Part shown: one piece after another, positions 40,473 through 51,333 of the stretch
Numbering within the stretch: position 1 is the stretch's first letter
How the letters are laid out: each line of letters begins with the position of its first letter
Source: Kiloniellaceae bacterium
GTDB lineage: Bacteria; Pseudomonadota; Alphaproteobacteria; Kiloniellales; J153
Assembly: GCA_021776135.1 (NCBI GenBank)
Contig: JAJFGL010000038.1
Location: 1-57,948 of the forward strand
Reading direction: 5' to 3'
DNA: 57,948 bases
The notes under the pieces: model-generated
The model's database searches: none
Seen by the model: the letters and a program-made list of their open reading frames with translations, nothing else
Told to the model about the DNA's origin: nothing
Translations under genes and position numbers: made by a program

Positions 40473-41849
40473 ATGACCGCCCCCGTCTTCAAGAACGTGC
40501 TGGAAAGCATTGGCAATACCCCCATGATCAAGGTCAGCCGGCTCGATACCGGCCCCTGCCGCCTGTTCCTCAAGCTGGAGAACCAGAACCCCGGCGGCTC
40601 GATCAAGGACCGCATCGGCGTGTCCATGATCGAGGCGGCGGAAAAGGACGGCTCGCTCAAGCCCGGCGGCGCCCTGATTGAGGCGACCGCCGGCAACACC
40701 GGCCTGGGCCTGGCCCTGGTGGCGGCGCAAAAGGGCTACCGCCTGACCATCGTGGTGCCCGACAAGATGGCGCAGGAGAAAATTTTTCACCTGCGCGCCC
40801 TGGGGGCCGAGGTGATGCTGACCCGTTCCGACGTCGGCAAGGGCCATCCCGACTACTATCAGGACATAGCCGAGCGCGTCGCCGGCGAGACCGGGGCCTT
40901 CTACGTCAATCAATTCGCCAATCCGGCCAATGCTCTAGCGCACGAAACTACCACAGGCCCTGAAATATGGGAGCAGATGGGCCGCGATCTGGACGCGGTT
41001 GTCTGCGGCGTCGGCTCCGGCGGCACCATCGCCGGGCTATCCCACTACTTCGCCAAGATGGCGCCCGAGGCGGAGATGATCCTGGCCGACCCCCAAGGCT
41101 CGATCCTGGCCGAATACATCGAGACCGGAAAGCTCAACCCCGATGTTGGCTCCTGGCTGGTCGAGGGCATCGGCGAGGATTTCCTGCCCCCCGTCGCCGA
41201 TCTCTCCCGGGTCAAGACCGCCTATAGCATCCCCGACAAGGAAACCATGCTGACCGCGCGCGAGTTGCTGGCCAAGGAAGGCATACTGGCCGGCTCCTCC
41301 ACCGGCACCCTGGTCGCCGCCGCCTTGCGCTATTGCCGGGCGCAAAGCGCGCCCAAGCGTGTGGTGACCCTGGTCTGCGACAGCGGTAACAAATACCTGT
41401 CCAAGATGTACAACGACTACTGGATGCTGGATCAGGGCTTTCTGGAGCGCGAAAGCACGGGCGATCTGCGCGATCTCATCCTGCGCCGCCACGCCGAGCA
41501 AGCCACGGTCACGGTGGCGCCCGAAGACACGCTACTGATCGCCTATGGGCGCATGAAGCTCTATGACATGTCGCAGCTTCCGGTCCTCGACGGCAAGGAC
41601 CGCGTTGCCGGGATCATCGACGAAAGCGATATCCTGCTCGCCGTGACCCGCGACGAGGCGGCCTTCAAAACCCCGGTGAAAAACGCCATGACCAGCCGCC
41701 TGCAAACCGTCCAGGCCAATCAGGACATGGACGGCCTACTCCCCATCTTCGACGCCGGCCACGTCGCCATCGTGGTCGAGGGCGAGAAGTTTTTAGGCCT
41801 GATTACGCGCATAGATTTGTTGAACCATTTAAGAAGGAAGATGCGCTAG
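40473..41849 (+). CDS. Cystathionine beta-synthase (PLP enzyme with CBS domains)
   Basis: A 458-residue protein. The fold-type II PLP domain has K45 in NPGGSIKDRIG and the TAGNTGLGLAL loop. Two CBS modules follow (about 340-455), including ILLAVTRDEAAFKTPVKNAM and HVAIVVEGEKFLGLITRIDLL. The architecture (synthase plus C-terminal CBS pair) matches cystathionine beta-synthase rather than CysK. It joins serine and homocysteine. A cystathionine gamma-lyase/synthase gene lies 8.3 kb downstream in the same direction, so the pair would give reverse transsulfuration. A CysK-like activity with sulfide cannot be excluded. Confidence 0.88.
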   Translation: MTAPVFKNVLESIGNTPMIKVSRLDTGPCRLFLKLENQNPGGSIKDRIGVSMIEAAEKDGSLKPGGALIEATAGNTGLGLALVAAQKGYRLTIVVPDKMAQEKIFHLRALGAEVMLTRSDVGKGHPDYYQDIAERVAGETGAFYVNQFANPANALAHETTTGPEIWEQMGRDLDAVVCGVGSGGTIAGLSHYFAKMAPEAEMILADPQGSILAEYIETGKLNPDVGSWLVEGIGEDFLPPVADLSRVKTAYSIPDKETMLTARELLAKEGILAGSSTGTLVAAALRYCRAQSAPKRVVTLVCDSGNKYLSKMYNDYWMLDQGFLERESTGDLRDLILRRHAEQATVTVAPEDTLLIAYGRMKLYDMSQLPVLDGKDRVAGIIDESDILLAVTRDEAAFKTPVKNAMTSRLQTVQANQDMDGLLPIFDAGHVAIVVEGEKFLGLITRIDLLNHLRRKMR

Positions 41850-41931
41850 GGGTGCGGTGCAATGCGCTGACGCTATTGCGCACCGTACGGCTACGAAGAC
41901 TATTGTGTACCTCGATTGCGGCTAGGAGCGG

Positions 41932-42960
41932 ATGAAAAAAAAGCATCCCATTGACGTTCTGAGAGACAGTGCCGGCTCAATGACCATTGGCACTGCCGAT
42001 GACAAGAGCGCGATCACAGGCATGCTTACTTTTACCGACAAACTATTCATAGTGAAAGAGAAAGGCATCTATCAGGTCCAGATGGCCGATGATTTCGATC
42101 CCGACCGCACCAATCCAAGCATCCCAAACGCCCAGAAGTTAGTGCTCAAACACGGATCTAAGTCAGAGTTCGTCGGCCGAACGTTACTCTTGGGCGATCA
42201 GCTATTGAAGGAGATCTATCTTCGGAACAACGTCAAACGCGATCGCATCATGCCACAGATTCTAGAGCTTACCCAAAAGCTATCCCTGATGAATGACATT
42301 GCTAGAGAGCACAAGAGGCAAGAGCGACGAGCCATACGACAAATTGAGAAGGCAGGAGTGCGTTCAGAAACGGACGATACCGCGTTCCACCTCCCTCAAA
42401 TTCCAAGTCTTTCTGAGAACCTCACAACTTTCTTCATCAACGCTAAGTTCGCCTTACAGTGTTTACTCGACATAGCTTACGATATTTACGGCCCACATCT
42501 AAAGAAGAGCTATTTCACGTCTCTCATCAAATTTGCAAGGGACGAGTATGGCAAGGACGATAACTTCTATGAATTTCTTAACAATCAAAAAGACTTCTGC
42601 GAAAACGTCAGAAAAATAAGAAACTGCCTCGAGCATCCGAAGCCCAGCGAAAAAATCGACATTCACAACACGACAATGAATGCCGATGGGGAGGTGTTGC
42701 TGCCACACTTCTATGTCATTCATCCCGACTATCGAAATGAACCGCATTCTGTTACGCATACTTTCGATCATTTTTTCAAAACCCTAATGTTCTTTTCGGA
42801 GGCATTCATTGGTCACATCGTTGGAAAGCACATTGATGCGACAAAGATAAAGCCCTTCCCAATCGGAATCATTGGGCTGCCCAAGAACCGGCGACGTTAT
42901 CCGTATGTTGAATACAGCCTCGGTGCGTTTGATGGAAAAAATTATATTGTCGTAGGATGA
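41932..42960 (+). CDS. Hypothetical protein with RNxxxH (HEPN-like) motif
   Basis: A 342-residue protein not assigned to a known family. Residues 105-145 are a charged helical stretch (IMPQILELTQKLSLMNDIAREHK). Residues 160-240 are helical and end in RKIRNCLEHPKP, where R230, N231 and H235 form the RNxxxH motif of HEPN-type RNases. The N-terminus (1-100) is mainly beta-like and unrecognised. AGGAG lies just before ATG 41932. The gene is clearly lower in G+C than its neighbours (25 of 60 bases in the line at 42421) and uses more AT-rich codons, suggesting transfer. A PIN-like gene follows 301 bases later. Confidence 0.72.
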   Translation: MKKKHPIDVLRDSAGSMTIGTADDKSAITGMLTFTDKLFIVKEKGIYQVQMADDFDPDRTNPSIPNAQKLVLKHGSKSEFVGRTLLLGDQLLKEIYLRNNVKRDRIMPQILELTQKLSLMNDIAREHKRQERRAIRQIEKAGVRSETDDTAFHLPQIPSLSENLTTFFINAKFALQCLLDIAYDIYGPHLKKSYFTSLIKFARDEYGKDDNFYEFLNNQKDFCENVRKIRNCLEHPKPSEKIDIHNTTMNADGEVLLPHFYVIHPDYRNEPHSVTHTFDHFFKTLMFFSEAFIGHIVGKHIDATKIKPFPIGIIGLPKNRRRYPYVEYSLGAFDGKNYIVVG

Positions 42961-43081
42961 CAATCTGATTCTCGTGAATGCTTATCGGTTCTCCCGCGGT
43001 CAAAGCTCGTCACTCGGATCAACCCGCATAGGTCGGAACAGAAAGCCGTTTTCCGCTGCATGTGGTATCATGACGCTCATC

Positions 43082-43110
43082 TGGCGGGTTACACTAACAC
43101 CAACACGCCC
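43082..43110. repeat. Degraded copy of short palindromic repeat, in 42961-43261 gap
   Basis: TGGCGGGTTACACTAACACC followed by AACACGCCC aligns to the element at 15128-15155 with several transitions. It lies in the 301-base gap between the two accessory genes. Nothing else is coding in this gap; a short out-of-frame ORF (43060-43446) runs into the PIN-like gene and is a shadow. Confidence 0.5.
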
Positions 43111-43261
43111 AGCGGCACTACGGCGTCCACACCACCACACTCAGCCGGGCCCTGCACTTCCAATGGATGTGCAAGATCGCAAGACCGGCCCCTCTTTGAG
43201 ACCGCTCTTTTCCGGTATGTTGTGAAAAATCGTCTGCCGACAAGAGGCGCTAATATACCTT

Positions 43262-44203
43262 ATGCAGATTGTCTATCTCGACCAGAATCAATGGGTGAAA
43301 TTGGCCAGGGCCTGGAAGTATCCTTCCGAATATGCCGAGGTGCGGAAGCTATTTGGAGAGATCGAGCGTGCAGTGTTGAATGGGAAGCTTTGCCTGCCCC
43401 TGACGGCAACGAATATTTACGAAACTTACAAGATCAATCGTTCTGAAAGACGACAGGACCTCGCGCTCGTTCAGAGTGCGCTAAGCCAAGGAAAAGTATT
43501 TGTCGGGCGTCACCAACGGTTAGCCAACGAAATTTCGTCGGTAGTGAGGAACATCCACAGCTTGCCTCCCGAAGATCGAGAAGAGTATTGGTTTTTATCG
43601 GACCTCTTCTTCGAAGCGTTCGCCGAGCATGGTGATGATCGAGTACAACTCACATTGCCAAAAAACCTGTTAGCGGCTATGCGTGCTAACCCGCCTTACT
43701 TCCTTCTTTGCTATTTGGTTGGTGCGCCGGACGAGGAACGACAGTTCGCCGTAGGACGGTGGTCGGCTGGGTCGGAAGAACTCCGACAGCGCATCGAAAA
43801 CAACCGTCAGAAGTTGAAGAACGAATCTATGGCGATGCGTAGAAGGATCTACAGCGCACTCCTGATGCTAGGTGAGGTTGAGATCATTCTAGGGTTCGCC
43901 TGTGACGCGGGCGCTCCTTGGCAAACTGTAAACGACATCAAGAGCTCGAATGCGCGGCGGCTAATCCGAGAAGTTCCCGCCTACTATGTCGAGCGTGAGT
44001 TGGCTCTGAGGATTGGCGCACTGGACCGCCCAATAGAAGAGAATGATTTCCGCGACATGACCGCATTCTGCGCTGCCGTGCCGTATGCAGACTGCGTGAT
44101 CTCAGAAAATCTGTTCGTCAATCTCGCCCTTCAAGCCGGACTGGACCAGCATTTTGGAACAACAATTACGACTGATCTAATGGAGGTGGCAAAGTTCCTT
44201 TAG
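43262..44203 (+). CDS. PIN-like domain protein
   Basis: A 313-residue protein. It opens QIVYLDQNQW, the beta-1 strand with acidic D7. E54 lies in ATNIYETY. D265 and D277 lie in NDFRDMTAFCAAVPYADCVI, and the C-terminal SENLFVNLAL with TTITTDL is as in PIN-fold ribonucleases. The middle (about 90-230) is a long helical insert, larger than in VapC toxins of about 130 residues. Composition is lower in G+C, as in the preceding gene. No antitoxin-like small gene is adjacent. A role in RNA cleavage, for example in defence with the HEPN-like neighbour, is inferred. Confidence 0.7.
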   Translation: MQIVYLDQNQWVKLARAWKYPSEYAEVRKLFGEIERAVLNGKLCLPLTATNIYETYKINRSERRQDLALVQSALSQGKVFVGRHQRLANEISSVVRNIHSLPPEDREEYWFLSDLFFEAFAEHGDDRVQLTLPKNLLAAMRANPPYFLLCYLVGAPDEERQFAVGRWSAGSEELRQRIENNRQKLKNESMAMRRRIYSALLMLGEVEIILGFACDAGAPWQTVNDIKSSNARRLIREVPAYYVERELALRIGALDRPIEENDFRDMTAFCAAVPYADCVISENLFVNLALQAGLDQHFGTTITTDLMEVAKFL

Positions 44204-44242
44204 CATTTTAAATCGCAAGATCCCCCCACCCCGGTCAATGCC

Positions 44243-45379
44243 CTAGGCGGGTACGGCCTCGGCCTCGCGGCGTTCGGCGGCGAGCTTTTGGCGTAGCGCT
44301 TCCTCGGCCTCGCCGTAGAAGAAGGCGAGCAGGATCATGCGCCGCCCGGCGGTGACCAGGGTCACCTCGTGCAGCATGGAAACCGAGAACACCACCGCCG
44401 CGCCGGTTCCGGCCCGGAACAACTGCGGCCCGTATTCCGGAAACCGCACATAGCCGCCTTCATAGGCGTCATTGTCGAGCGCCAGGGACATGGCGAAGCG
44501 GCGGTGCGCGGAATAGGGCGTGGTATCGTCCCTATGGGCGAGGAAATGGCCGCCGTCGGCGGCGTGATAGGCGCCCAGACGCAGGGTGTCCGAGCGGGTC
44601 ACCTGGAAGCCGTAAGCCTTCTTGATCTCGGGAAACAAGCGCCGGCGGAACATGCCCAGAATCTCCTGCGCCTCGGCGCCCCGGTCGGGCAGGGCCACAT
44701 CCTCGCGGGACTTCACTTTCTTCATCGGCACATTGCCGCCGTACTCGCCGCTCGCGACCCCGCCCTCGAAGCGTTCGCCGGCCTCCCAATGGGCGATCAG
44801 CCGCTGGCAGTGGGCCTTGTCGAGCACGTCTGGAACGATGAGCACCGGCGCCTGCGCGGCGGCCAGCACCGGGGTCAGCAGGGCGGCCCGTTGGGTGCAC
44901 TCGCCGAGCGCCTCAAGCGCCTGGTCCGCCGCGCCCTGGGCGCCGATGCGCTTCACGACCCGGCGTCCGGGATCGACGATCAGCGTGCACCAGGACTCGG
45001 CGCTGGGCGCGGCGAAGGGGCCGGCCGGGGCACGGCCGAGACCCAGGGCCCGGCCGCACGAAAAGCCCTCGTCCGAGAGAATCGAAAACGGCAAATCGAG
45101 ACGCTGCATGGCCGCCGCGTTGACCGCGACCGGATCGCCGCTGACCGCGAACATCAGGCACCCGAGATCGTTAAACTGCGCCGCCAGCGCGGCGAGGCGC
45201 TTAAGCTCCCGGGCGGCGCCGGGGGCTTCCGCCGAGGTACAGACGAAGATCACCGTGAGCCGGCCCCCGAAACGCGACTGTTCGAGCGAAAACTTACCGC
45301 CCCGGTGGTCGCGCCAATCCATATCGGCGACCAGGTCGCCGGGTTCGAGATAAATCCGTCCGGACGCACTGCTGTTCAT
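44243..45379 (-). CDS. Fusion of peroxiredoxin-like and prolyl-4-hydroxylase-like domains
   Basis: A 378-residue two-domain protein from ATG 45379 with GGAGG upstream. Residues 15-160 have the thioredoxin-like layout of AhpC/TSA peroxiredoxins (LTVIFVCTSAEAPGAARELK, then FAVSGDPVAV and FSILSDEGFSCGRALGL). The usual peroxidatic Cys position in the TPGC-like loop (here APGA) appears to be Ala. Residues 180-355 are a P4Hc-type Fe(II)/2-oxoglutarate domain with H282 and D284 (LAHRDDTTPY), H337 (SMLHEVT) and an Arg in TAGRRMIL. Such fusions are known in proteobacteria but poorly characterised. The substrate is unknown. Confidence 0.8.
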   Translation of the reverse strand: MNSSASGRIYLEPGDLVADMDWRDHRGGKFSLEQSRFGGRLTVIFVCTSAEAPGAARELKRLAALAAQFNDLGCLMFAVSGDPVAVNAAAMQRLDLPFSILSDEGFSCGRALGLGRAPAGPFAAPSAESWCTLIVDPGRRVVKRIGAQGAADQALEALGECTQRAALLTPVLAAAQAPVLIVPDVLDKAHCQRLIAHWEAGERFEGGVASGEYGGNVPMKKVKSREDVALPDRGAEAQEILGMFRRRLFPEIKKAYGFQVTRSDTLRLGAYHAADGGHFLAHRDDTTPYSAHRRFAMSLALDNDAYEGGYVRFPEYGPQLFRAGTGAAVVFSVSMLHEVTLVTAGRRMILLAFFYGEAEEALRQKLAAERREAEAVPA

Positions 45380-45502
45380 GGTTTCCTCCCCGCCGCGCCA
45401 AAAAGGCGCGGGCGCACAGGGTTCCATAGGCCGGTCCGGCACCCACCGGTGCATTGATCCAGGTCAAGTGGGCGGCCGGCCCAAATTATGGTGGGCAATC
45501 CT

Positions 45503-45554
45503 CTTGACTCGAATATTCCTATTTTGTTCTATATCCGCCCTCTATCGCGACTCC
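45503..45554 (+). promoter_or_regulatory. Degenerate duplicate of the SOS promoter of the downstream polymerase
   Basis: This 52-base stretch aligns without gaps to 46876-46927 (43 of 52 identical by my count). It keeps the -35-like TTGACT (45504-45509) and a near LexA box, ATTC-N7-GTTC (45515-45529), one base off consensus. It directly precedes the truncated transposase frame. Confidence 0.65.
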
Positions 45555-45566
45555 TAGAGAGCAGGT

Positions 45567-45989
45567 ATGCGCATGCGGGGCTGGACAGGGTATTTCTGGC
45601 AAGGGCGGTTCTTCTCATCCGCCCTGGATCGGGATTATCTTTGGGCGGCGGTGCGCTACGTCGAGCGCAACCCGGTGCGGGCGCGGATCGTGCGAACGGC
45701 GCGGACCTATCGCTGGTCAAGCGCGGCCGCGCACTGCGGGCTGAGACAAGACCCGGTCTTGACCTCAAAGCCGTCCTGGCGAAGGAAGTTTGAAAGTATC
45801 GGCGACTGGCCCGCTTGGCTGGCCGAGGGCGACGAGCCGCAAAAGCTGGAGGTCTTGCGGCGCAACGTGGACAAGGGTTTGCCCTGCGGTTCGGAGAAAT
45901 TCATCCGGACGCTGGAGAAGTTGACGGGGCGTGCGCTCCGGTATCGGCCGCCTGGACGCCCGAAAAAGCAGCATAATAAAAAAGGGTAG
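45567..45989 (+). pseudogene. REP-associated tyrosine transposase (RAYT), N-terminally truncated
   Basis: A 140-codon frame matching the C-terminal half of RAYT/TnpA-REP proteins. GWTGYFWQGRFFSSALD and AVRYVERNPVRARIV are the hallmark region, with the catalytic Tyr in RYVERNP. Then RWSSAAAHCG and a basic tail RYRPPGRPKK follow. The N-terminal part with the HUH metal motif (about 90 residues) is missing, and the sequence upstream is a copy of the polymerase promoter region, so an internal deletion or recombination joined them. The stop codon lies inside a REP. It should be inactive as a nuclease. Confidence 0.85.
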
Positions 45990-46000
45990 CGTCCCCTTTA
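45978..46000. repeat. REP sequence 1
   Basis: AAAGGGTAGCGTCCCCTTT (45981-45999) with flanking A's. The same unit recurs inverted at 46765-46789 and direct at 46813-46835. It contains the stop codons of both the transposase remnant (plus strand) and the hemerythrin remnant (minus strand). Confidence 0.85.
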
Positions 46001-46138
46001 TCCCTGAATCGCGGCCCGCCGGTCAGCGTCCTTATAGTCGGCGCCCAGCTGGTTGATGATCCGGATCAGCTGTTTATGGTCATCGTCCAAATCGGCGAGG
46101 CCGACGCTCATCTCGCGCTTCCATTCCATGACGCTCAC
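45998..46138 (-). pseudogene. Bacteriohemerythrin, N-terminal fragment truncated at a REP
   Basis: A 46-codon minus-strand frame from GTG 46138 with AAAGGAG upstream. It contains MEWKREMSVGLADLDDDHKQ followed by LIRIINQL, the standard start of single-domain hemerythrins including the first iron His (DDDHKQL). Full-length proteins have about 130 residues. Here the frame stops at a TAA formed by the REP sequence (45998-46000), so helices 2-4 and the other iron ligands are lost. The remainder was not found beyond the transposase remnant. It looks like a gene broken by REP/RAYT insertion. Confidence 0.78.
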
Positions 46139-46323
46139 GGCCAAGCTCCTTTCCTAGTGAATACCCAGAACTGGCGCTCGGGTAGCGCCTCGTCTTGGAC
46201 CGCTATTATTGGATATTCAGGCACCCTCGAACTTGATGCACATCAAGCGGCGCGGGCTTGGCGGAGCGGGGGCCGCGCCGGGGCCCGAGGTTCGGCCCCG
46301 GCGGCGGCCTCAGGCCGGGGCGC

Positions 46324-46557
46324 TTAGCCCAGATAACCGCTCCACTTGCCACGACCGTCGAGTATCGGGCCGGGCCCGTTTTCGATTCCGGCCGCGGTGT
46401 GGGTGCCGGCAGTGTCAATCGCCGCCAGGGCCAAGAGCAGGGCCAGGGTCAGGGCGAGCAAGGATTTCGCGCCGATACCGGCGGCACCGTCGGTTTTCGG
46501 CGCGGATTTCGGGTCGATTTGGCTGAGTTGGTCGATCGTGGAGTGCGCTAGGGACAT
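46324..46557 (-). CDS. Small single-pass membrane protein, unknown
   Basis: A 77-residue frame from ATG 46557 with a perfect AAGGAG eight bases upstream. Residues 1-25 are polar (MSLAHSTIDQLSQIDPKS), then SLLALTLALLLALAAIDTAG is one membrane helix, and the Gly-rich tail ends GKWSGYLG. No family recognised. The strong ribosome site and typical membrane segment support coding, although the frame is short and GC-rich frames occur on the other strand. Confidence 0.5.
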   Translation of the reverse strand: MSLAHSTIDQLSQIDPKSAPKTDGAAGIGAKSLLALTLALLLALAAIDTAGTHTAAGIENGPGPILDGRGKWSGYLG

Positions 46558-46764
46558 CTCAATACTCCTTATCCGATGGAAAACGATGTCCGCCATAGCC
46601 GACGGTACATCTTCGCTTCATTCCCTTTAAGATGTTGAGTATTCAGGCAGTCTTCAAACGATAACTTCTCATTTGACGGATTAGTAGAACTTATTCGAAA
46701 AAACCACCCCGTAAGATCGGAAACACCCCACTAGTGGATGGAATCTAACGCTTAAAAGACGGGC

Positions 46765-46838
46765 AAAAGGGGACGCTACCCTTTATTTTTCGGTGTCCTC
46801 CGTATCGTAATCAAAAAGGGTAGCGTCCCCTTTTTGAT
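46765..46838. repeat. REPIN: two inverted REP sequences
   Basis: AAAGGGGACGCTACCCTTT (46766-46784) and the inverse AAAGGGTAGCGTCCCCTTT (46815-46833) are separated by about 30 bases, a REPIN arrangement. The right copy is itself a long hairpin: ATCAAAAAGGG (46810-46820) pairs with CCCTTTTTGAT (46828-46838), so it could also act as a two-way terminator before the polymerase gene. The AT-rich stretch 46600-46760 before it contains no gene. Confidence 0.85.
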
Positions 46839-46876
46839 GTGGCCCGGTCAATAAGCCCCGCTCCGCCGCTTCCCCC

Positions 46877-46907
46877 TTGACTTAATTGTTCCTGCTTTGT
46901 TCTATAT
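46877..46907 (+). promoter_or_regulatory. SOS (LexA) promoter of Y-family polymerase gene
   Basis: GTTCCTGCTTTGTTC (46888-46902) is an exact alphaproteobacterial LexA box (GTTC-N7-GTTC). It lies between a TTGACT -35 element (46877-46882) and TTCTAT/CTATAT (-10, 46900-46907), so bound LexA would block RNA polymerase. The start codon follows at 46942. Confidence 0.85.
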
Positions 46908-46941
46908 CTGCCCTCTACCGCGAATCCAAAGGGGCAGATTG

Positions 46942-48189
46942 GTGCGCAAGCCGGCGACTGTTGAGCGTCTTTATCTTGATTTCGACGGCTTCTTCGCCTC
47001 GGTGGAGCAGCAGGTCCGGCCCGCGTGCCGGGGCCGGCCGGTGGGGGTGGTGCCATTCGATTCAACCACTTACACCTGCGTCATTGCCTGCTCGAAGGAA
47101 GCCAAGCGCTTCGGCGTGACCAACATCATGCCGGTTTTGGAGGCCAAGCGGATCTGCCCGGATATCGTGCTGGTGCCCCAGAACCCGGATTTGTACCGGC
47201 GCGCCCACCATGCGCTCCTGGCCGAGATTTCGGCGGTCATCCCGGTCGACGCGGTCAAGTCCATCGACGAGCTGACCTGCCGCCTGGAATCTGCCGACCG
47301 GCTTGACCCCCACGGCCTCGCCCGGCGCATCAAAGCCCGCATCCGGGACAATATCGGGCCCTATATCACCTGTTCCATCGGCTTCGCCGCCAACCGGCAC
47401 CTGGCCAAGATGGCCGGCAAGATGGACAAGCCGGACGGGGTGACCGTCTGGCGCCCCCAGGACATGCCCGGTCCCTTGCTCGGCATAGCCCTGCACGACG
47501 TGCCGGGCATCGGCAAGCGCATGGGCTACCGGCTTCAGGACGCCGGTATTTTCACCATGGCCGATCTTTGGAAGTCGCAACCCAAGCACCTGCGCAAAAT
47601 CTGGGGCAACGTGACCGGGGAGCGCCTGTGGTACGCCCTTCACGGCTATGACATTCAGGCGGCGCCATCCGGGCGGGGCATGTTCGGCCATGGCCGGGTT
47701 CTGCCGCCCAAGTTCCGGGATATCCGCCATGCCTATGACTGTTCGCGCCTGCTGCTGGTGAAGGCGGCCCGGCGCATGCGCCGCGACGGTTTCTATGCCG
47801 GGAGCCTGTGGCTGTGGCTGAGTCTGCGCGACAGCCGCTGGTCGGGCGCCGCGCCCCTGCCCATCGTTCACGACGATCAGGCGTGCCTGGCGGGCCTCGA
47901 AATCCTGTGGGCCAAGGCGCGCGCGCAAGTGCCGCGGGAGGCGAAAATCATCCGCCTGGGGGTCACCTTGCTGGAGCTATCCCCGGCCAACGCCCGGCAG
48001 CTCGATATGTTCGTGAACGACGACGACGCGCGCCAACGTTGGGAGCGGGTCACGGCGGCCGTGGATTCCCTCAATGCGAAATACGGCCGGACCATGGTCA
48101 GCCTAGGATCCTGGACGCCGCCGCCCGGCGGCTACGCCGGGGGCAAGATTTCCTACACCCGCATTCCACGGGCGGAGGATTTCTGGTGA
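46942..48189 (+). CDS. Y-family DNA polymerase (DinB/ImpB-MucB-SamB type)
   Basis: A 415-residue translesion polymerase. The palm motif YLDFDGFFASVEQQ holds the first catalytic Asp (D13/D15), ACSKEAKRFGV is the finger region, and VKSIDELTCRL is the SxDE catalytic motif. SIGFAANRHLAKMAGKMDKPDG and DVPGIGKRM (helix-hairpin-helix) follow. I chose GTG 46942 with AAAGGGG seven bases upstream; the frame extends to 46897, inside the LexA box. No beta-clamp motif was clear in the tail. It is controlled by the SOS box and overlaps the next gene by four bases, forming a short DNA-damage operon. Confidence 0.9.
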   Translation: MRKPATVERLYLDFDGFFASVEQQVRPACRGRPVGVVPFDSTTYTCVIACSKEAKRFGVTNIMPVLEAKRICPDIVLVPQNPDLYRRAHHALLAEISAVIPVDAVKSIDELTCRLESADRLDPHGLARRIKARIRDNIGPYITCSIGFAANRHLAKMAGKMDKPDGVTVWRPQDMPGPLLGIALHDVPGIGKRMGYRLQDAGIFTMADLWKSQPKHLRKIWGNVTGERLWYALHGYDIQAAPSGRGMFGHGRVLPPKFRDIRHAYDCSRLLLVKAARRMRRDGFYAGSLWLWLSLRDSRWSGAAPLPIVHDDQACLAGLEILWAKARAQVPREAKIIRLGVTLLELSPANARQLDMFVNDDDARQRWERVTAAVDSLNAKYGRTMVSLGSWTPPPGGYAGGKISYTRIPRAEDFW

Positions 48190-48431
48190 CCTGGAAACAC
48201 GACCTGCAACTGCGCGACCTGGAAGACGGCCGGTCCATCGAGATCGCCTGCCGCCGCTGCGGCCAGACCTATTACCGGCAGGTTCGGGAGCTGCGCGACC
48301 TCGGCGTCCTATCGTATCTGGACGAGGTTGAGGCGCGCCTCGCCTGCAAACGCCGGGGCTGCCGCGGCGGGGTGCGGATATCCCTGATGGACAGCTCCGA
48401 AACCGACGGCTTCGTCGGCGGCCTGCCATGA
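48186..48431 (+). CDS. Small Cys-rich (zinc-ribbon-like) protein coupled to polymerase
   Basis: An 81-residue protein starting at GTG 48186, whose GTGA overlaps the polymerase stop. CRRCGQTYYRQV and ACKRRGCRGGVRI carry two Cys pairs about 30 residues apart, consistent with a zinc ribbon. No known family recognised. The coupling to a Y-family polymerase suggests an accessory factor in translesion synthesis, but this is inference from position. Confidence 0.72.
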   Translation: MTWKHDLQLRDLEDGRSIEIACRRCGQTYYRQVRELRDLGVLSYLDEVEARLACKRRGCRGGVRISLMDSSETDGFVGGLP

Positions 48432-48466
48432 GGCGCGCGGCGCATTCTCTTGGGGACGGGCGAGGA

Positions 48467-49297
48467 TTACGCCCGCGCCCAAACTTGCGGATATAACTCC
48501 GACCCCAGTCCGTCGCCGGGCTTAAGGCCGTGTTCGGTCATGATGGCCGAGTGATCGGGATCCATGCCTTCCTCGCGAAAGCAGACGCGGACATCGTCGC
48601 CAAGCCATTGGGTGTTGAAAATCTTGAGATCGCGCCCCTCGGATAGATTGCCCGAACCGCCATGGACGGTGCGCCCATTGAAGGCCACGCAATCGCCGGG
48701 CTCCATGTCCCAGCTTAGAATGTCGTAATCGCCGCGGTTGTTTTCCACATCGGGGAACGGCACCGTGCCGCCGTCGCGAAACTTCACCCGGTCGCGGCCG
48801 TCCTTGGTCAGCACGGCGAAATCGGTCTGGCGGAATTTCTGTTTCCACAGGTGGGAACCGAGGACGAACTCAAGGGCGCTCTTCTTTTCAACCGGTACGA
48901 GCGGCATCCAGATGCTGCAGGTATCGAAGCCCTTAACCGACCAGTAGGGCTCGTCCTGATGCCAGGGCGTGCGGAATTGCGCCCCCGGCGTGCGCACGAA
49001 CACCGCATCGTAGAAGAAATGCACACGCTCGCTGCCCATGAGCTTTCCGGCGATCCCGGCACAAGGCGAATTGAAGGCAAAATCCCTGTAGCCCTCGATG
49101 TCGCGCCACGCCTGATTGTCGTAAAAACACGTCCGGCCCTCGGCGTCGCGGTCCCATATCCGGCTGCGCGCGCTCGGGCGGGCGATATTGTCTTCTATGC
49201 CGCCGCGCAGGATATCGATCCAATTCCGGTCGAATGCCTGGGGCAAAAACACAACGCCGTCACGGGCAAAAGCCGCGGTATCTTCCTTCGCGATCAT
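48467..49297 (-). CDS. Phytanoyl-CoA dioxygenase (PhyH) family protein
   Basis: A 276-residue Fe(II)/2-oxoglutarate oxygenase. H113 and D115 (RTPWHQDEPYW) and H212 (TVHGGSGNLSEG) form the iron triad, and RDLKIF holds the likely 2-oxoglutarate Arg. LEFVLGSHLWKQKF is typical of PhyH. GGAGG precedes ATG 49297; the frame extends to 49321. It is convergent with the Cys-rich gene. It is the second PhyH member in the window and differs from the 33.5-kb copy in length and core sequence. The substrate is unknown. Confidence 0.88.
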   Translation of the reverse strand: MIAKEDTAAFARDGVVFLPQAFDRNWIDILRGGIEDNIARPSARSRIWDRDAEGRTCFYDNQAWRDIEGYRDFAFNSPCAGIAGKLMGSERVHFFYDAVFVRTPGAQFRTPWHQDEPYWSVKGFDTCSIWMPLVPVEKKSALEFVLGSHLWKQKFRQTDFAVLTKDGRDRVKFRDGGTVPFPDVENNRGDYDILSWDMEPGDCVAFNGRTVHGGSGNLSEGRDLKIFNTQWLGDDVRVCFREEGMDPDHSAIMTEHGLKPGDGLGSELYPQVWARA

Positions 49298-49511
49298 GGC
49301 CTGCCTCCCTCTTCCAGACATCAGAAAATATATTCGCCGAACGATAGGATTATCGGCGGCCGCAAGTAAATTGCTTAGCGAAATGCGACAGATTTTCAGG
49401 TCGTTTTTTGTAGCGATTTACCGGGAGAGCGGCTGCAAAACCTACCTGGAGGCGGCGAAATATCAATTTCCTTGCCTGAAATCCCCTAGCCTTTACGGGA
49501 AGAGCATCGAA

Positions 49512-50092
49512 ATGAAACGCGGAGTTTTGATCGGCGGGGGCGGCATACTTGCGCTCGGCGTCGTTGCCATTGCCGTTATCTTCTTTTTCCTGGGATCCAT
49601 TATCGTAACCGCGGTCGAGACAACCGGGTCGGAGGTGACCAAGACCAAGGTCACCCTGGCCGGCGCCGATATCGACTTGAGCAGCGGCAAGGGCACCCTT
49701 CAGGGCTTCAAGATGGGCAACCCCGCCGGCTTCAAATCGGCACGGTCAGCATCCTGCTCAACCAGCTTCTGGACAAGACCATGGACGCCAATCTTCCCGA
49801 CATCCACCTGAAGGACGTGGGCAAGAAAGAAGGCGGCGCGAGCCCGGGGGAAGTGGCGAGCCAGACCCTCGATGCCGTTCTGACCCGGGTGACCGCGCTG
49901 GTCGGCGGGATCGACATGGGTGCGCTCACCGATGCCCTGGGCGAGGGCGCCGCCGGGGCGCTCAAGAATATCGGCGGCGGTGCCGGCGGCGTTGTAGAAG
50001 GCACGGCCGAGACCGTGGGCGGCGCGGACGAGGGCGCGGCCGAGGGCGCCAAGGGTGCGCTCAAGAGCCTCTTCGGCGGCGGCAAGGACTGA
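49512..50092 (+). pseudogene. Frameshifted membrane-anchored periplasmic protein
   Basis: The frame from ATG 49512 gives an N-terminal membrane anchor (LIGGGGILALGVVAIAVIFFFLG) and a start of a periplasmic beta domain (GADIDLSSGKGTLQGFKMGNPAGFKS). Directly after GFKS the coherent sequence continues in another frame (GTVSILLNQLLDKTMDANLP, then IHLKDVGKKEGGAS) to the stop at 50092. In relatives I recall, a long stretch separates GNPAGFK from this segment, so an internal deletion with frameshift is likely. The end is Gly/Ala-rich low complexity (GALKNIGGGAGGVVEGTAE). Two short peptides may be made. The original function resembled AsmA-like domain proteins of unknown role. Confidence 0.72.
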
Positions 50093-50160
50093 GCGGCGGC
50101 CCCTTTGACAAGTCCCCGCTAAGGGCCACATGTTGAGCCTTGCTCAACACCGAGGTCCTC

Positions 50161-51333
50161 ATGCCCCAAGAACCGAGCCGCCCCAACCGCCCTCACTTCG
50201 CGACCCGCGCCATCCATGCCGGGCAGTCGCCCGACCCCAGCACGGGCGCCATCATGCCGCCGATCTACGCTACCTCGACCTACGTTCAGGAGAGTCCAGG
50301 GGTCCATAAGGGCTACGAATACAGCCGCAGCCAGAACCCGACCCGCATGGCCTATGAGCGCTGTATCGCCGATCTGGAAGGCGGCACGGCGGGCTTCGCC
50401 TTCGCCTCGGGCATGGCCGCGACCTCGACCGCCCTGGAGCTGCTGGACGCGGGCGATCATGTGGTCGCCATGAACGATCTCTATGGCGGCACCTACCGGC
50501 TGTTCGAGAACGTGCGCAAACGCTCGGCGGGCCTGTCGTTCAGCTTCGCCGATATCAGCGACATGAACGCCCTGGAAGCGGCGGTGCGGCCGGAAACCAA
50601 GATGATCTGGGTCGAAACCCCGACCAATCCCTTGCTGACCCTGGTCGATCTGGAGGCGGCCGCCGCCTTCGCCCGCCAGCGCGGCATCTTGTGCGTGGCC
50701 GACAACACCTTCGCCAGCCCCTGGGTTCAGCGCCCCATCGAGCAGGGCTTCGACATGGTCATGCACTCGGCCACCAAGTACCTGAACGGCCATTCCGACA
50801 TGGTCGGCGGGATCATGGTTGTGGGCGCCGACACGGCACTGGCCGGGCGCCTGGCCTACCTGCAAAACGCGGTCGGCGCAGTCCAGGGCCCCTTCGACAG
50901 CTTCCTGGCCCTGCGCGGCCTCAAGACCCTGGCGCTGAGGATGGAACGCCACTGCACCAATGCGCTTGGAATCGCCGAATACCTTGAGGCCCACCCCAAG
51001 GTCGAGCGGGTGTACTACCCCGGCCTGGCCAGCCACCCCCAGCACGCCCTGGCCCAACGCCAGATGGATGCTTTCGGGGGCATGGTGACCATGGTGCTCA
51101 AGGGCGGCTTGGACACCGCCAAGCGCTTCCTTGAGCGGGTCGAAATCTTCGCCCTGGCCGAAAGCCTGGGCGGGGTCGAGAGCCTGATCGAACACCCGGC
51201 GATCATGACCCATGCCTCGATTCCGGCGGAAATCAGGGCCGAAATCGGGATCGGGGACAGCCTGGTGCGGCTCTCGGTCGGGGTCGAGGACCGGGACGAT
51301 CTGATCGCCGATCTGGACCAAGCCCTGCGCTGA
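50161..51333 (+). CDS. Cystathionine gamma-lyase/synthase (Cys/Met PLP enzyme)
   Basis: A 390-residue Cys/Met-metabolism PLP enzyme. K206 in MHSATKYLNGHSD is the PLP lysine, and YEYSRSQNPTR and ASGMAATSTALELL are cofactor and substrate loops. IWVETPTNPLLTLVD and VADNTFASPWVQRP are the standard core motifs. I chose ATG 50161 (GAGG upstream), with an in-frame TTG at 50140. With the cystathionine beta-synthase at 40.5 kb it would complete reverse transsulfuration (homocysteine to cysteine). Gamma-synthase and methionine-gamma-lyase activities are alternatives that sequence alone does not exclude. Confidence 0.88.
   Translation: MPQEPSRPNRPHFATRAIHAGQSPDPSTGAIMPPIYATSTYVQESPGVHKGYEYSRSQNPTRMAYERCIADLEGGTAGFAFASGMAATSTALELLDAGDHVVAMNDLYGGTYRLFENVRKRSAGLSFSFADISDMNALEAAVRPETKMIWVETPTNPLLTLVDLEAAAAFARQRGILCVADNTFASPWVQRPIEQGFDMVMHSATKYLNGHSDMVGGIMVVGADTALAGRLAYLQNAVGAVQGPFDSFLALRGLKTLALRMERHCTNALGIAEYLEAHPKVERVYYPGLASHPQHALAQRQMDAFGGMVTMVLKGGLDTAKRFLERVEIFALAESLGGVESLIEHPAIMTHASIPAEIRAEIGIGDSLVRLSVGVEDRDDLIADLDQALR

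Follow-up and report, generated by a model that had tools for sequence, protein, structure and literature searches.

Two RNase-type candidate defence genes, one a predicted split-PIN nuclease, at a cystathionine beta-synthase/gamma-lyase junction of a Kiloniellaceae bacterium

DS-3 is described in the excerpted text of PMC13092281 (DefensePredictor) as a one-protein defence system whose PIN domain is split between the N and C termini, which has no antitoxin and whose protection requires the catalytic residues. HARP, a minimal protein-only RNase P (8kd9), also has a split PIN-like domain with an internal helical domain, and the excerpt of PMC10941002 gives it as a protein of ~190 aa (about 23 kDa) with a small 'spike helix'. 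VapC proteins of known structure (3zvk, 5ecw, 5ecd and 5ed0) have 132 aa and a neighbouring VapB. For HEPN proteins, an extract of PMC3710099 gives the rule Rx4-6H, in which R is mostly followed by N, D or H, and Tha is presented in part of PMC11087260 as a HEPN-domain anti-phage system of S. aureus prophages.

Two neighbouring genes, P0001 and P0002, were compared with these systems. They lie in the window, that is, the whole stretch of 57,948 nucleotides analysed (contig JAJFGL010000038.1). P0002 has the layout of DS-3, namely a single protein, a split PIN domain and no conserved antitoxin; the two are likened by description only, as far as the DS-3 excerpt goes, and DS-3, unlike P0002, was tested against phage. 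The PIN fold predicted for P0002 is shared with the four VapC structures (Z 7.5-8.3, 124-126 of 132 residues aligned), and an active-site Asp of Shigella VapC, known from mutants in PDB titles, stands at residue 7, as in P0002, whereas P0002 has 313 aa, a helical insert and no conserved antitoxin that could be found. From HARP (Z 6.2) it differs in length, in a far larger insert (helices ~61-252) and in a patchy, mobile distribution. P0001 resembles the HEPN superfamily, Apea-like members especially, in its Rx4-6H motif, where a polar residue follows R (PMC3710099, extract), and in the defence-like neighbours of some of its relatives, but it reaches no HEPN family cut-off. Tha, again likened by description only and from part of its source, is a precedent for HEPN defence in prophages. 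We think it fairly probable that P0001 and P0002 are independent, horizontally acquired single-gene defence factors of RNase type that share one hotspot, and we rate both as solo RNase defence candidates, a known sort of gene. A word-matched search of the open-licence literature, which did not compare sequences, found neither family described.

Two genes in a low-GC stretch

The features of the locus are listed below in order of position; the names of the two cystathionine genes are our reading of their translations.

40473-41849: presumed cystathionine beta-synthase (CBS) gene
41850-50100: inserted stretch, relative to the related genomes G005, G006 and G008
41850-44235: low-GC left 2.4 kb of the insert, 50% GC, carrying both genes
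41932-42960, + strand: P0001, HEPN-like solo gene of 342 aa (ORF; Rx4-6H motif)
42619-42636, + strand: P0001 motif R230-N231...H235 (translation)
42961-43261: 301-base gap separating P0001 and P0002
42974-43225, + strand: 83-aa ORF in the gap, GTG start
43262-44203, + strand: P0002, predicted split-PIN solo nuclease gene of 313 aa (ORF, model, alignment)
Within P0002: active-site candidates D7, E54, D262, D265 and E282, with D277 in most relatives (alignment)
50140-51333: presumed cystathionine gamma-lyase gene

The coordinates, the + strands and the 301-base gap given for the pair by the first-pass annotation were reproduced on recomputation, and the residues that it had named (R230, N231 and H235 in P0001; D7, D265 and D277 in P0002) stand at the positions assigned to them. 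Its GC counts, 25/60 at 42421 against 36/60 at 41101, were likewise correct. The GC content is 45% for P0001 and 52% for P0002, compared with 62% for the window, and the eight 1-kb segments of lowest GC in the whole window all fall in the region of the gene pair.

Neither protein gave a significant match in Pfam, PADLOC, NCBIfam or PHROGs, sequence searches of the PDB returned nothing useful, and no known defence gene was recognised near the pair when the ORF lists of the window were read by eye. The 83-aa gap ORF is unlike any small ORF near other PIN-family genes, and a plasmid search with the gap DNA found no similar sequence. A promoter scan of 41700-44300 gave a single sigma-70-like site, on the - strand, and shuffled sequences gave more, an outcome that weighs neither for nor against separate promoters.

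P0001 and its HEPN-like motif

RNxxxH arose in 3.7% of P0001 shuffles and the looser Rx4-6H in 90.5%, so that the motif in a single sequence is weak evidence. R230 and H235 are nevertheless invariant in all seven members of the family, whose median identity is ~22% and in which just seven columns are invariant (M1, P155, L160, R230, H235, P258 and E290). The residue after R is N in six members and H in one, and the spacing from R to H is four residues in five members and six in two; conservation and spacing both fit the HEPN Rx4-6H rule. The earlier assignment of P0001 to the HEPN RNases held for a HEPN-type motif, its R and H kept in 7/7 relatives, and for the fold it stays a presumption.

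Profile and structure comparisons were also made. HEPN_Apea of Pfam was reached by 2/6 family members, below the cut-off (E 0.0067 and 0.0085). An hhalign comparison of the family with alignment A8, which comprises five proteins from the HEPN_Apea searches (four above the cut-off and one below; a sixth, L115, was dropped), covered 17 columns around the motif at prob 1.5. The alignment of the P0001 profile A1 with a RiboL-PSP-HEPN protein missed the motif, and A1 against A5, the negative control, gave nothing useful. The single-sequence model of P0001 had a pLDDT of 36.8. The unusable model and the lack of a significant HEPN profile match would both suit another kind of helical protein that happens to carry a conserved R/H pair, a reading which we regard as unlikely: R and H are among the seven invariant columns with a spacing of four or six and N or H after R, and two relatives do touch HEPN_Apea. 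P0001 is most likely a HEPN ribonuclease that would work through R230 and H235, presumably as a dimer held under the control of its own N-terminal region.

The family is sparse. It was present in 2/58 relatives and in 4/398 genomes of the phylum (the source genome included in both counts), a rescan of the same 398 genomes with profile A1 again gave four, and 2/274 genomes were positive in the class of G354 (G354 included). One relative lies on a plasmid, from Photobacterium, and three plasmid searches with P0001 relatives returned that record alone or nothing; no phage match was obtained with P0001.

Some relatives have defence-like neighbours. Seven neighbouring genes, drawn from four of the six other family loci, were scanned with Pfam, and L117 was read by eye. 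AAA_22 and PIN_8 genes lie some kb upstream of the relative in L018, whereas the one neighbour scanned in each of L017 and L019 gave nothing above the Pfam cut-off. On the Photobacterium plasmid, the relative has an endonuclease gene at a distance of 3 kb and, at 7.6 kb, a gene for a PIN-domain protein. In L013 (8931-12546), a GmrSD_N gene, a RiboL-PSP-HEPN gene and the P0001 relative follow one another on the same strand, possibly as a three-gene cluster.

P0002, a predicted split-PIN nuclease, and its family

The AlphaFold2 model of P0002, built from a 39-sequence alignment, had a pLDDT of 92.5 and a pTM of 0.90. The alignment drew 38 relatives from the 69 loci described below and one viral contig, with longer matches favoured. 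In VIA-align, the top five rows were all PIN nucleases, with VapC at Z 8.3, 7.7, 7.5 and 7.5 and HARP at Z 6.2, and the next row fell to Z 3.0; the best row, VapC2, aligned 126/132 residues and was the one row above the value of 8, below which Z may reflect a common arrangement alone. Plain Foldseek of the model against the PDB gave no PIN match (every E > 1), and Foldseek against BFVD gave nothing useful. Strand 2-6 and strands 278-280 and 301-303 flank the helices ~61-252, indicating that a long helical domain of about 190 residues interrupts the PIN core; the domain borders are our own reading of the predicted secondary structure.

An acidic set is expected for a PIN active site, and one of this kind is conserved here. 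D7, E54, D262, D265 and E282 are invariant in 39/39 aligned relatives. D7 and D265, which the first-pass annotation had put forward as PIN residues, were thus fully upheld, and its third residue, D277, was upheld in part, being D in 33/39; E54, D262 and E282 had not been named there. The model, the VapC alignment and the conserved acidic residues also bear out its proposal of a PIN fold with a long helical insert. P0002 is very probably a PIN nuclease by its predicted fold, with a presumed RNase activity.

Seven P0002-family sequences were scanned against a collection of 84,980 species, yielding 69 PIN-family loci in Alphaproteobacteria, Gammaproteobacteria, Nitrospira, Geobacteraceae, Bryobacteraceae, Chloroflexi and many Actinomycetota, and partial matches were found on haloarchaeal plasmids and viruses. 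Closer to the source genome the gene is patchy, being present in 3/58 relatives and in 2/289 class genomes, both counts including the source genome. Viral contigs scanned with P0001, P0002, the Photobacterium relative and profile A4 gave no useful match, and profile A2 gave one locus, a P0002 relative on an IMG/VR contig. Another relative, at 30% identity, is ORF6 of the Pseudomonas phage PfAC03, a Pf phage; most Pf accessory genes are defence-related according to the excerpt of PMC11878078. Searches of E. coli genomes with DNA of the relatives L057 (Pseudomonas) and L118 found no match, a result that is little informative at such divergence. In two Streptomyces loci (L084 9396-12082 and L068 9932-12530), two split-PIN members lie side by side and convergent, and in L040, L041, L042, L047 and L080 PIN-family genes are spread over two or three frames that overlap or adjoin, which probably reflects broken genes or sequencing errors.

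Genomic context was analysed on plasmids, using all seven records with at least 80% coverage from three plasmid searches with family members. Annotated defence or conflict genes were present within 6-8 kb of the relative in 6/7 records, a raw count given without base-rate control, which agrees with the defence setting suggested earlier, here for the PIN family on plasmids. The neighbours were E2, ThiF and patatin on the Mesorhizobium AR10 plasmid; SIR2, together with UvrD + AAA genes that we take to be Gabija-like, on that of Bradyrhizobium CW1; DISARM drmA and drmC on that of Rhodococcus ruber; AbiEii with DUF6088, and a nucleotidyltransferase with an HI0074-type partner, on that of Bradyrhizobium 2S1; an Abi family protein and a DNA adenine methylase on that of R. 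pyridinivorans; and AbiEii on that of Streptomyces NBC_01455. Around the relative on the M. paragordonae plasmid, IS elements and unrelated genes were found and no defence gene. On the R. ruber plasmid (L121 6001-6981), the PIN-family gene starts 23 bases past the end of drmC on the same strand, in an operon-like arrangement.

A second comparison covered genes of at least 150 aa around the family loci, L034 being omitted as it had no gene-caller anchor. The neighbours within 2.6 kb (107/137 given, 30 left out by hand) matched 355 PADLOC families, versus 86 for genes at least 5.5 kb away (104/106 given). Since the families are redundant, many being E1-E2 models hit by two or three proteins, and the two sets differ in length, this contrast is weak support.

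No partner recurs beside the PIN gene. In a clustering of neighbouring ORFs of at least 60 aa, based on a crude gene caller, no non-PIN family occurred in more than six PIN loci; the largest were present in 6, 5, 5 and 4 loci at variable positions beside the PIN gene, and some families of three or four loci reflect synteny common to Streptomyces. Shorter ORFs (35-160 aa) lying no more than 500 bases away were compared at 80 PIN loci, the window among them. No small partner recurred widely, the small ORFs of the window matched no cluster, and in the four largest clusters the members listed are ORFs that overlap the PIN gene. The PIN gene therefore behaves as a solo gene. In keeping with the absence of an antitoxin-like gene noted at this locus, the test speaks against a small antitoxin shared across the 80 loci, though antitoxins that differ between loci would escape it.

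The orphan toxin reading, in which P0002 is a VapC-like toxin whose antitoxin is elsewhere, locus-specific or lost and which would serve element maintenance rather than defence, appears improbable. VapC is the nearest fold, and in PfAC03 the relative is immediately preceded, on the same strand, by an Arc-like DNA-binding gene. The excerpt of PMC11878078 gives 'TA' as the defence system of PfAC03, the ORFs meant not being named there. Weighing against this reading are the lack of a recurrent small partner at PIN loci and the size of P0002, which at 313 aa with a large insert compares with chains of 132 aa in VapC.

To a role in RNA processing, such as HARP-like tRNA maturation, rather than defence, we give little probability. 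It would account for the likeness to HARP, the fifth VIA-align row and itself a split PIN protein with an internal helical domain (PMC10941002, excerpt), but not for the scatter of P0002 among relatives, class genomes and the eight other genomes of the family (absent from all of them), nor for the plasmids, the filamentous phage and the defence neighbours among which its relatives are found.

Returning to the defence reading, we propose that P0002 is a metal-dependent PIN endoribonuclease, its fold predicted and its activity presumed, in which the PIN core (~residues 1-60 and 255-313) is interrupted by the helical domain. That domain most likely keeps the nuclease inactive, senses an infection cue, or both, which would make an antitoxin unnecessary. 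Once triggered, P0002 would cleave tRNA, rRNA or mRNA, and the resulting arrest of translation would stop phage production, as in abortive infection. It is possible, and put forward tentatively, that P0002 founds a widespread family of self-controlled split-PIN RNases in which the variable helical insert would itself sense infection, and which plasmids and Pf phages would carry as one-gene abortive-infection systems. If so, this would be a broad PIN effector family needing no antitoxin, a design with one tested example, DS-3, in the literature examined. The family sits in plasmid defence neighbourhoods yet escapes four family libraries (Pfam, NCBIfam, PADLOC and PHROGs), and it now has testable residues in D7, E54, D262, D265 and E282.

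Probably independent neighbours at the CBS/gamma-lyase junction

Every ORF of the collected loci was searched with profiles of both families. The two families occur together solely in the window and its own copies. None of the 69 PIN-family genome loci carries the HEPN-like family (49 extend 4 kb or more to either side, the rest being limited by contig ends), and the PIN family is absent from all six HEPN-family loci beyond the window (two of these lie on short contigs, 3.1 and 5.9 kb long). The plasmid stretches L121-L126 hold the PIN family alone (0/6 with the HEPN-like family). With no co-occurrence, a two-gene HEPN-PIN system is not supported, and the HEPN-PIN operon was rejected as a candidate. 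That P0001 and P0002 form one system of two RNases, an effector plus a regulator or co-effector, is very improbable: the genes lie on the same strand, 301 bases apart, and are low in GC and RNase-like, but the partner is missing from all 69 PIN and all six HEPN loci. The first-pass annotation had put the two genes forward as one candidate defence system; this is not borne out, as in the loci examined the homologues are adjacent nowhere beyond the window and its copies, and their side-by-side position looks like chance.

The site itself was compared in eight genomes of the same family, anchored on the CBS gene upstream of the pair. In G005, G006 and G008, CBS is followed directly by the gamma-lyase gene, giving three empty sites, whereas in the window the gamma-lyase gene lies 8.3 kb beyond CBS. 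The junction is filled with 1.9 kb of other sequence in G001 and 1.5 kb in G003. G002 has the downstream gene of the window (44243-45454) at 83% DNA identity, with a different ORF at the position matching the pair. G004, in which the gamma-lyase was unmatched in the stretch compared, and G007, in which CBS is at a contig end, were uninformative for the junction. P0001 and P0002 were absent from all eight genomes searched. The empty junctions and this absence indicate that the two genes are accessory cargo, and the empty sites in related genomes support the low-GC accessory insertion proposed in the first reading. The functions of CBS and gamma-lyase do not bear on P0001 and P0002, and further cargo in this bacterial family may be sought at the junction, a candidate hotspot.

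Several smaller features were observed at the junction. In G001, the alternative cargo (L104 7190-8742) comprises a 130-aa ORF without a Pfam match and two further ORFs. In G002, the CBS 3' end occurs twice: another copy of the last ~110 bases (L103 11277-11388; 81% identical) lies ~3 kb downstream of the gene, beyond the cargo, where the contig ends, and is possibly a trace of integration at the 3' end of the gene. The ORF 45567-45989 of the window, which may be truncated, has no Pfam match and presumably resembles a REP-associated tyrosine transposase. The end of this ORF is marked by a 25-base element (45980-46004) that is repeated nearby in the window and is found, identical, downstream of the CBS gene in G003.
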